From Spirochaetae bacterium HGW-Spirochaetae-4 (GTDB lineage Bacteria > Spirochaetota > Spirochaetia > Sphaerochaetales > Sphaerochaetaceae): DNA of 32,464 nt. Positions 7,928 through 9,834 of this stretch are shown here, piece by piece. The notes under the pieces are model-generated. The model searched no databases and was not told the DNA's origin. It saw nothing but the letters and a program-made list of their open reading frames with translations. The DNA is taken from positions 1 to 32,464 of the forward strand of contig PGXU01000032.1 of the NCBI GenBank assembly GCA_002839335.1, written 5' to 3'. Each line of letters opens with the position of its first letter. Positions within the stretch are counted from its first letter, which is position 1. Position numbers and translations under genes: made by a program.

Positions 7928-8482
7928 CTAGGCCAGGTCCAATTCCGGTGCGATTTCGCGCATGCCTTCGATCGTAAGCTGTATGACCTGGTCGAGTTCC
8001 ATACCCACCATCTGTGCTCCCTGGGCAATCAGTTCCCTATTCACCCCAACCGAGAAACCCTTGGTCTTCCACTTCTTCTTCACCGATTTCACTTCCAGGT
8101 CCATGAGGCTTTTCGAAGGACGCATGAGAGCCGTGGCTGTGACCAATCCGGTCAGTTCATCGATGGTGAACAGGACTTTTTCCATGGGATGTACCGGTTC
8201 CACATCGCTGCACAAAGTCCATCCATGGGATACGACCGCATGGATGATATCGTCGGATGCTCCGGCGGCCGAGAGGAGTTCGGGAGCCTTCTTGCAGTGT
8301 TCGTCGGGATACTGCTCGTAATCGATATCGTGAAGAAGCCCTACAATGCCCCAAAATTCCACATCATGTCCCATTTCCCGGGCAAAGCGGCGCATGACAG
8401 ACTCCACGGACAATGCATGCTTGTAGAGACTGTCCGAGGTGTTGTATTGCCGATACAACTGAAGAGCTTCATTTCTGGTCAT
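7928..8482 (-). CDS. HD-superfamily hydrolase (COG2316-like)
   Basis: A 184-residue protein beginning MTRNEALQLYRQYNTSDSLY. It has the early His (KHALSVE), the HD doublet in GLLHDIDYEQYPDEH, a later His in VVSHGW, and the Asp in IDELTGL, so the metal-dependent phosphohydrolase site is complete. The strongly conserved tail region LMDLEVKSVKKKWKTKGF is typical of a widespread group of stand-alone HD hydrolases whose substrate is not known. Upstream in-frame codons to 8536 are rejected because GGAGGA (8487-8492) lies just before the ATG at 8482 and the extension runs into the promoter region. A perfect 18-bp palindrome overlaps the predicted -10, so the gene is probably repressed by a DNA-binding protein. 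Confidence 0.87.
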   Translation of the reverse strand: MTRNEALQLYRQYNTSDSLYKHALSVESVMRRFAREMGHDVEFWGIVGLLHDIDYEQYPDEHCKKAPELLSAAGASDDIIHAVVSHGWTLCSDVEPVHPMEKVLFTIDELTGLVTATALMRPSKSLMDLEVKSVKKKWKTKGFSVGVNRELIAQGAQMVGMELDQVIQLTIEGMREIAPELDLA

Positions 8483-8509
8483 TGTGTCCTCCAAGGTCAA
8501 AAAAGTACC

Positions 8510-8527
8510 ATACAAATCAATTTGTAT
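8510..8527. promoter_or_regulatory. 18-bp perfect palindrome, probable operator
   Basis: ATACAAATCAATTTGTAT: two 8-base arms that are exact reverse complements around a 2-base centre. It covers the predicted -10 and transcription start of the HD hydrolase gene, the usual place for a repressor dimer. Confidence 0.6.
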
Positions 8528-8549
8528 CATCTGCATCGGTTTACCGCAA
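8521..8549 (-). promoter_or_regulatory. candidate promoter of the HD hydrolase gene
   Basis: On the minus strand TTGCGG (8544-8549), 17 bp, TACAAA (8521-8526). The expected leader is about 32 nt with the SD near its end. The match is moderate (3 and 4 of 6). Confidence 0.4.
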
Positions 8550-8562: not shown

Positions 8563-8595
8563 ACTTTCCAATCCCCCTTTATCACATGACCGCTA

Positions 8596-8606
8596 TGTGG
8601 TATCAT
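8596..8606 (+). promoter_or_regulatory. extended -10 promoter of the corA leader
   Basis: TGTGGTATCAT contains a TGn extended -10 (TGG plus TATCAT). No strong -35 is visible (TTTATC at 17 bp). It would give a leader of roughly 50 nt before the leader ORF. The same TGTGGTAT core occurs at the predicted promoters of rplU and pta. Confidence 0.5.
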
Positions 8607-8665
8607 TTTTACGTCTCGGGCATTGCCGATATGGCGATGGATTCTTTTCATACAAGGAGGATGCT

Positions 8666-8755
8666 ATGTCTACTTCAGACGATGGCGGGAGTATACGCTA
8701 TCGCCCATTAAAAAAATACATTTCAGCGATCCTCCCGAACCAAGTCGACATTTAG
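8666..8755 (+). CDS. 29-residue leader ORF upstream of corA
   Basis: ATG 8666 follows a textbook SD (AAGGAGG, 8654-8660) and the frame closes with TAG at 8753-8755, 50 bases before corA. The peptide is basic in the middle (IRYRPLKKYISAILPNQVDI at its end), contains two prolines, and matches no family I know. A start signal this strong on so short an ORF, directly before a Mg2+ transporter gene, argues for a translated leader used for regulation, similar in principle to the mgtL and corL leaders of Salmonella but with no visible sequence relation. The stop codon lies immediately before the first of two competing hairpins. An alternative is a genuine small protein. Confidence 0.6.
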   Translation: MSTSDDGGSIRYRPLKKYISAILPNQVDI

Positions 8756-8757
8756 TT

Positions 8758-8806
8758 CCAGCCCTACCAGGGCTGCTGGTTCCCGGGGACTGCCGAGGAG
8801 GAACCA
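8758..8806 (+). promoter_or_regulatory. mutually exclusive hairpins controlling the corA start
   Basis: Hairpin 1 pairs CCAGCCCT (8758-8765) with AGGGCT (8769-8774) and, after a 2-base bulge, TGG (8777-8779). Hairpin 2 pairs TGGTTCC (8777-8783) with GGAACCA (8800-8806), covering the end of the SD (GAGGAGG, 8795-8801) and the first base of the corA ATG. They share bases 8777-8779. A ribosome terminating at the leader stop (8755) would cover hairpin 1 and favour hairpin 2, closing corA; without leader translation hairpin 1 forms and corA opens. The pairing is seen; the mechanism is inferred. Confidence 0.5.
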
Positions 8807-9834
8807 TGATCACAATCCGAAACGATATTGCCAGCAGAATTCCAGGTGACAATGTATCTTCAGGCGGGTACACTTGGATCGATGCCCGAGAGATTACACG
8901 TGACGATATTACTGAATTGCAGGAAGACTACGGCATCAGCTCCGAGCTTCTTGCGGACATCATGGACTTGGACGAACAATCCCGGATAGAAAAGGAAGAT
9001 GACTACGTTGCCCTTATCGTGAGGCTTCCGGCTTTCGCGGATGATAGCCATGGCATCAACCAATATTGCGTTCCGCTCGGCATAGTCATGATGAAGGACA
9101 CCATCATCACCATTTGCCAGAGCGATAGCGTGATACTCGAGGACTTCGCGCGCAACCGGTTCAGGCAGTACCCGGTACAGACGCAGGAAGGATTTGTCAT
9201 CAGTCTCATGGGGCGGGCGGCCATGGTCTTTATCCGGCTGTTGAAATACCTGAACAGGCAGAAGAACCTGATTGAAGAAGAATTGCATAAATCCGTCCGA
9301 AATGACGAACTTATCCAATTGCTCTCCATTCAGAAATCACTCGTGTACTTCACCACCAGTCTCACGACCAATGAAATCCTCTTGGAAAAATTGCAGAAAT
9401 CTCCGTATTTCCGCGTGAACACAGAAGAGGAGCGGGAATTCCTGGAAGATATCATCATCGACAACAAGCAAGCTATCGAGATGTCCAACATCTACTCGTC
9501 GATTCTCACCGGGACCATGGATGCCTTCGCCTCGGTCATCTCCAACAATCTCAGCATAATCATGCGAAGACTTACGGTTATTTCGATTGCATTCATGTTT
9601 CCAACCTTTCTCGTCGGGTATTATGGCATGAACCTGAAGCTTCCCTTCGCGGGGAATCCGTTCATGATGTATTGGATCATTGGAATAGGCCTCGTCGCGG
9701 GGTTTGGAAGCACCTACATATTGAGCGACAAGCGATCGAGGAAACGTGCCGAACGGCATTTGGAATCGGCAAGGAAACGTCGGGAAAAGCAACGGCGTTC
9801 CAATCGTCGCAAGGGGCGCGTCCGGGAGGATTGA
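8806..9834 (+). CDS. corA: CorA-family Mg2+/Co2+ channel
   Basis: A 342-residue CorA protein. A long cytoplasmic N-terminal domain (alpha/beta, then long helices through LIEEELHKS and LEDIIIDNKQAIEM) is followed by two C-terminal helices; the signature YGMN in VGYYGMNLKLPF closes the first helix near residue 274, and the second is YWIIGIGLVAGFGSTYIL. The family forms pentameric channels for Mg2+ (also Co2+, Ni2+) in the inner membrane. A strongly basic tail (KRSRKRAERH onward) after the second helix is longer than usual for the family. Start at 8806 is set by GAGGAGG at 8795-8801 and the family N-terminus; open frame upstream belongs to the leader region. Expression is probably controlled through the leader ORF and competing hairpins just upstream. 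Confidence 0.93.
   Translation: MITIRNDIASRIPGDNVSSGGYTWIDAREITRDDITELQEDYGISSELLADIMDLDEQSRIEKEDDYVALIVRLPAFADDSHGINQYCVPLGIVMMKDTIITICQSDSVILEDFARNRFRQYPVQTQEGFVISLMGRAAMVFIRLLKYLNRQKNLIEEELHKSVRNDELIQLLSIQKSLVYFTTSLTTNEILLEKLQKSPYFRVNTEEEREFLEDIIIDNKQAIEMSNIYSSILTGTMDAFASVISNNLSIIMRRLTVISIAFMFPTFLVGYYGMNLKLPFAGNPFMMYWIIGIGLVAGFGSTYILSDKRSRKRAERHLESARKRREKQRRSNRRKGRVRED

Follow-up and report, generated by a model that had tools for sequence, protein, structure and literature searches.

A conserved leader ORF upstream of corA in Sphaerochaetaceae, a candidate translational attenuator resembling Salmonella mgtQ and MgtL

Leader peptides that sense Mg2+ through the stability of the ribosome are known from enterobacteria (Salmonella and E. 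coli), and the M-box (ykoK, RF00380) is an aptamer-based Mg2+ riboswitch. The Salmonella leader mgtQ joins acidic codons to a switch between stems 1:2/3:4 and stem 2:3, in which 3:4 hides the ribosome binding site (PMC8092293). In attenuators of the mgtQ type, the acidic codons reduce translation of the leader and increase that of the gene behind it. MgtL carries early acidic residues followed by P-L-P (PMC8934632), and ribosomes drop off at its EPDP sequence in low Mg2+ (PMC11282234). The gammaproteobacterial corA motif has been reported only from that class, uses Rho, and has a peptide poor in acidic and proline residues (PMC11552253, PMC6429828).

We analysed a stretch of 32,464 nucleotides (the window) from Spirochaetae bacterium HGW-Spirochaetae-4. 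It belongs to a 3.6-Mb genome that has its closest named relatives among Sphaerochaetaceae and other MAGs of the Spirochaetales. The leader of its corA gene is probably a translational attenuator working like Salmonella mgtQ and MgtL, with Mg2+ as its probable signal, a reading that we hold with fair confidence. Its mechanism is closest to Salmonella mgtQ, and its peptide is closest to MgtL. With mgtQ (the mgtB leader) it would share a short Shine-Dalgarno (SD)-led ORF, early acidic codons, the same alternative stems, translational control, and a Mg2+ transporter downstream, here presumably CorA. However, mgtQ has 8 codons, lies between mgtC and mgtB in enterobacteria, and encodes an unlike peptide, whereas the spirochaete sequence is the 5′ leader of corA in Spirochaetota and holds region 2 of the switch inside its longer ORF. 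An SD-led short ORF with early acidic codons was found at 87/87 loci of the family, upstream of a transporter whose substrate is presumed to be Mg2+. At every locus read the leader precedes corA, and by this setting it is not an mgtQ orthologue. Like MgtL, the leader has early acidic residues, with P-L-P right after them in most Sphaerochaetaceae, and stands before a gene for a presumed Mg2+ importer; MgtL, in contrast, has been described as acting by Rho-dependent termination, whereas the conserved spirochaete helices would act on the corA SD. An earlier sequence-only reading of this DNA had called the leader unrelated in sequence to mgtL. This holds insofar as no homology was shown, but most leaders of the family share with MgtL the early acidic residues and the P-L-P that follows. 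In corL/corA and the corA RNA motif, too, corA is preceded by a short ORF and RNA structures compete (PMC11552253, PMC6429828).

The corA locus and its leader ORF

The features of the locus, by position in the window, are these.

8579-8584, + strand: weak −35 element TTATCA, upstream of the predicted extended −10 element
8598-8606, + strand: predicted extended −10 element TGGTATCAT (motif TGnTAnnAT in relatives)
8621-8639, + strand: 5′ hairpin, CATTGCC-GATAT-GGCGATG, following closely on the predicted transcription start (pair probability 0.97 to 1.0)
8654-8660, + strand: leader SD, AAGGAGG
8656-8687, + strand: region 1, from the leader SD to the Gly codons, predicted to pair with region 2 in the untranslated state (8656-8665 to 8725-8735)
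8666-8755, + strand: leader ORF, MSTSDDGGSIRYRPLKKYISAILPNQVDI and stop, conserved in relatives with synonymous variation at conserved residues
8678-8683, + strand: acidic codons D5-D6 of the leader ORF
8725-8741, + strand: region 2, 3′ codons of the leader, AGCGATCCTCCCGAACC, predicted to pair with region 1 or region 3
8759-8775, + strand: hairpin 1, CAGCCCT-ACC-AGGGCTG, between regions 2 and 3, coexisting with either state
8777-8786, + strand: region 3, anti-SD arm TGGTTCCCGG (from pair probabilities and comparison)
8793-8806, + strand: region 4, CCGAGGAGGAACCA, comprising the corA SD and the A of the start codon, sequestered by region 3 as hairpin 2
8806-9834, + strand: corA, CorA-family divalent-cation channel with a GMN motif (PF01544, E = 7.7 × 10−53, and translation)

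The leader ORF begins at ATG 8666, has 29 codons, and ends at TAG 8753-8755, 50 nt before the corA ATG (8806), just as the sequence-only reading had described it behind its AAGGAGG; it is presumably translated in vivo. A TGnTAnnAT motif lies 20 to 100 nt upstream of the leader ATG at 40/61 loci, compared with 3.0 expected by shuffling. With the −10 element predicted at 8598-8606, the leader would be on the transcript, which makes it unlikely that transcription starts downstream of 8755. Hairpins like that at 8621-8639 were seen by eye at the same place in L016, L023, and L149, and a scan for intrinsic terminators between the leader and corA found none. The gene for an HD-domain protein (7928-8536, minus strand) diverges from corA, with a short promoter spacer common to both. 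The corA frame stays open upstream to TTG 8623 (8623-8805), overlapping the leader in another frame; a longer CorA starting at this TTG is not favoured, as the corresponding position in relatives carries a MITIR-like start preceded by an SD.

The same genome holds a second CorA-family gene of a different type (L217, G000:C116:13371-14240), in front of which no acidic leader ORF was found, making it a useful internal control. A search of the genome for MgtE gave no match. Given the second CorA gene without such a leader and the result for MgtE, the CorA encoded in the window, whose substrate is presumably Mg2+, may not be the sole Mg2+ route.

We took corA orthologues from the genome contigs and from whole genomes of the family, where 95/139 had a strong match. 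All 87 of the Sphaerochaetaceae loci analysed have an SD-led short leader ORF about 90 to 160 nt upstream of corA, and all 87 leaders have an acidic pair within their first nine residues. The pattern P-[LHYI]-[PS] follows soon after the acidic pair in 73/85 non-identical leaders; the window’s genus keeps the acidic pair and has RYRP in the place of P-L-P. The leader core takes the form MS..D[DE]GGS in the window’s genus and in Sphaerochaeta, and other forms in the family are MDEGGSxNPLP, MDDGSYPLP, ..SEEANPHPDS, and MREIDDSNPLP. Within the MS..D[DE]GGS group, Gly7 is coded by GGC, GGT, GGA, or GGG and Gly8 by three codons, with the residues invariant (13/13). This synonymous change at invariant residues suggests that the peptide appears to be under selection, to be read with the same bases also lying in helix 1:2 and the group having been picked by this motif. 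The exact pattern MSxxD[DE]GG[SG] occurs in 8/393 genomes across the phylum, once per genome in Sphaerochaetaceae and with two further matches in other families; it proved too strict for a phylum-wide search, and corA orthologues were read directly instead. NCBIfam models gave no match to the leader peptides, and no similar DNA was found in plasmids.

Covarying helices between the leader and corA

We assessed covariation with a partner-swap test, in which, at 61 dereplicated loci, the duplex energy of each true pair was set against the energies obtained with partners from other species. The regions were set by position and not by pairing (region 1, leader SD to codon 8; region 2, codon 13 to stop; region 3, stop to −13; region 4, −14 to +6 of corA). 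True partners paired better than swapped ones for 1:2 (z = −9.4), 2:3 (z = −15.0), and 3:4 (z = −11.2); because the loci are related by descent and P values overstate their independence, we relied on two safeguards, namely swaps confined within clades, which were still significant (1:2, z = −5.4; 2:3, z = −9.5; 3:4, z = −8.0), and the pairings 1:3, 2:4, and 1:4, which were null across the 61 loci. Because the core helices hardly vary in a covariation alignment of one genus, the test was run as swaps both across and within clades. Furthermore, region-2 bases are common to 1:2 and 2:3 in 95% of loci, and region-3 bases are common to 2:3 and 3:4 in 89%. Swap tests and shared bases together indicate mutually exclusive states, 1:2 with 3:4 versus 2:3, with 3:4 hiding the downstream ribosome binding site. 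Comparison among relatives thus shows a conserved leader ORF with conserved acidic residues and three covarying helices of which neighbours exclude each other.

The sequence-only reading had proposed as a check that the leader frame and the stems be conserved in relatives. With the leader at every family locus analysed and the swap tests positive, a lack of conservation is rejected, and this comparative evidence is decisive in setting the observation above chance. The proposal that leader translation controls corA through an SD-hiding fold is likewise strongly supported by comparison, but the alternative helix is 2:3, not hairpin 1 as had been supposed.

The helix sequences diverge between genera (GAAGGC/GCCTTC/GAAGGC in one; GGAGGA/TCCTCCCGAACC/GGTTCCCGG in the window), indicating that it is the topology that is conserved. 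In genera with MDEGG leaders (e.g., L167 and L166), the 3:4 stem holds the start codon and the SD lies in the loop (GATCTGAAGGC..GCCxxATGATC), whereas in the window the 3:4 stem contains the SD.

Modelled ribosome position and the signal it would read

We propose that, when the leader is untranslated, region 1 (the leader SD and acidic codons) would pair with region 2, leaving region 3 to hide the corA SD and start codon (OFF). If a ribosome is slowed or held over the first acidic codons, and in most species also at Pro-Leu-Pro, it would cover region 1 and not region 2; the freed region 2 would pair with region 3, making the corA SD easier to open (ON). A ribosome reaching the stop codon would cover region 2, and 3:4 would reform (OFF). 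Low Mg2+ would favour slow passage through the acidic and proline codons, as for MgtL, so that corA would be expressed under Mg2+ shortage. By analogy with the described leaders, pausing would occur at the acidic codons, Mg2+ would be the signal, and corA would rise as Mg2+ falls.

We modelled the cost of opening the corA SD under different ribosome positions. A first test, with the SD interval set at −16 to +3 and an exact stop footprint, gave no overall difference between the paused and stop states: in one genus this interval reached into the 2:3 helix, and at loci with a short spacer the ribosome at the stop codon sat over part of the SD. The cost was then defined over the corA SD and AUG (−12 to +3) with a region-2 mask, in a thermodynamic calculation without co-transcriptional folding; with this interval and mask, which were chosen after the first result and on which the swap tests do not depend, the mean opening cost was 9.6 kcal/mol for the untranslated leader, 6.0 kcal/mol with a ribosome at the second acidic codon, and 11.7 kcal/mol with region 2 removed. 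In the paused state, the true region 2 gave a lower cost than shuffled versions by 4.3 kcal/mol (P value = 1 × 10−11); for the untranslated leader, the true region 1 gave a higher cost than shuffled versions by 2.9 kcal/mol (P value = 2 × 10−11). Other Spirochaetota showed the same direction with smaller effects. Non-spirochaete corA regions given a mock leader showed no effect of region 1 or of region-2 removal, and a weak effect of their own versus shuffled region 2 (P value = 0.03). In these computations, the position of the ribosome is predicted to set the opening of the corA SD.

For the window itself the opening costs were 8.9, 5.2, and 9.3 kcal/mol, with the change on pausing being that from 8.9 to 5.2; when the ribosome front was placed 9 nt past the stop codon, the cost was 6.9 and not 9.3. 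In its paused state, helix 2:3 has a probability of about 0.5, and UCCUCC in region 2 captures the corA SD at 0.67. With region 2 able to pair with the SD in this way, full SD release is not predicted for the window species, where the paused-state model is only half convincing.

The alternative that survives best keeps the same four-region switch and replaces Mg2+ with slow elongation in general (proline and EF-P, tRNA charging, another metal, or a ribosome-targeting compound) as the signal; we consider it unlikely, though it carries real weight. For the structural switch, it is enough that the ribosome moves slowly through the first half of the leader. Substrates differ among CorA-family proteins, and the second CorA paralogue in the genome has no such leader. 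Against a signal other than Mg2+, the leader is without a run of one amino acid, and its most conserved feature is the acidic pair, a known Mg2+-sensitive ribosome-destabilising element, which always stands before a CorA-family gene. A precedent on the other side is Salmonella mgtP, which senses charged tRNA-Pro (PMC8092293).

Simple coupling, in which leader translation opens the hairpin or delivers reinitiating ribosomes and raises corA constitutively, seems to us improbable. It draws on two subclades in which the leader stop lies mostly 17 to 39 nt before corA; this proximity makes the stop-state prediction unreliable there, and coupled reinitiation is possible in these subclades. At the 25 loci with a spacer of at least 40 nt, however, the opening cost was 5.75 kcal/mol with the ribosome at the acidic codons, 4.3 kcal/mol nine codons on, and 9.6 to 11.3 kcal/mol at the stop, where the ribosome restores sequestration (11.3 versus 5.75 kcal/mol, P value = 6 × 10−8). 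Moreover, coupling leaves the covariation of 1:2 and the keeping of the early acidic residues unexplained.

Hairpins 1 and 2, known RNA folds, and wider occurrence

Hairpin 2 is as it was first read: TGGTTCC (8777-8783) is complementary to GGAACCA (8800-8806), which takes in the last bases of the corA SD and the start-codon A, and the counterpart of hairpin 2 is conserved. Hairpin 1 had been placed at 8758-8779 and was thought to share 8777-8779 with hairpin 2, so that the two would be mutually exclusive. We found instead that it spans 8759-8775, that 8777-8779 are not needed, and that both hairpins stand together in the minimum-energy fold with pair probabilities of about 0.8 to 1.0 for each; as an exclusive pair they were rejected. 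Hairpin 1 is kept in the closest relative, L005. When its 5′ arm is covered, its 3′ arm turns to 8776-8780 instead, forming a minor variant hairpin (8766-8770/8776-8780) that makes hairpin 2 weaker, and it is only through this variant that the two compete. It is thus very doubtful that a terminating ribosome works by blocking hairpin 1, since the hairpins otherwise coexist and the covarying exclusive helices lie elsewhere. Against chance, the 86-nt region of the hairpins does not stand out by itself (z = −0.85), and the 234-nt leader does so moderately (z = −2.5).

A ligand-binding riboswitch or other metal-sensing RNA with the ORF incidental, for which the position upstream of a metal-channel gene might speak, is scarcely credible, given helices without conserved sequence or an aptamer-like core, a peptide that is the conserved part, and no Rfam match at gathering score or even at E ≤ 1. 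This agrees with the earlier reading, which had recognised no known riboswitch fold; the lack of a match extends to the corA RNA motif, which Rfam 15 may not hold. The M-box likewise controls Mg2+ transport genes, but the spirochaete leader is not aptamer-like, and the RF00380 covariance model gave no match in the leader or genome.

Returning to the attenuator, leaders with early acidic residues precede corA in other Spirochaetota as well (MSDTDGGGSS.., MPDSDSKPSEPLSPHIRQPRRG.., MDTDPGSS.., and MDGGSSSYPI..), and related leaders (MDTDPGS.. and MPDSDS..) do so in many Treponema and other Spirochaetota. At the non-spirochaete corA loci examined, the leader was not seen. We tentatively suggest, with a little less than even confidence, that the corA leader peptides of Spirochaetota form a phylum-wide class that arose independently of MgtL and mgtQ. 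The ribosome itself would be turned into the Mg2+ sensor by an acidic(-proline) nascent chain, and a fast-changing and always covarying four-strand RNA switch would read its position. If this is true, ribosome destabilisation as a Mg2+ sensor would be a general bacterial strategy and not just an enterobacterial one. Like peptide chemistry and switch logic, with different sequence in a distant phylum, would mean that the mechanism is widespread or evolved more than once, and the loci offer dozens of natural variants for asking which nascent-chain residues give ribosomes their Mg2+ sensitivity. The literature searched, mostly without subscription journals, held no description of spirochaete leaders of this kind, which may be new. 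The leader is too short and the RNA too variable for easy capture by gene annotation or structure-family searches.

In Treponemataceae, the leader is present at 20/26 analysed corA loci, and some loci outside Sphaerochaetaceae are without it. At three Treponemataceae loci (L191, L192, and L197), an MDSDPGS.. ORF starts 61 to 73 nt before corA and runs 29 to 56 nt into corA in another frame, a geometry unlike that of the window.
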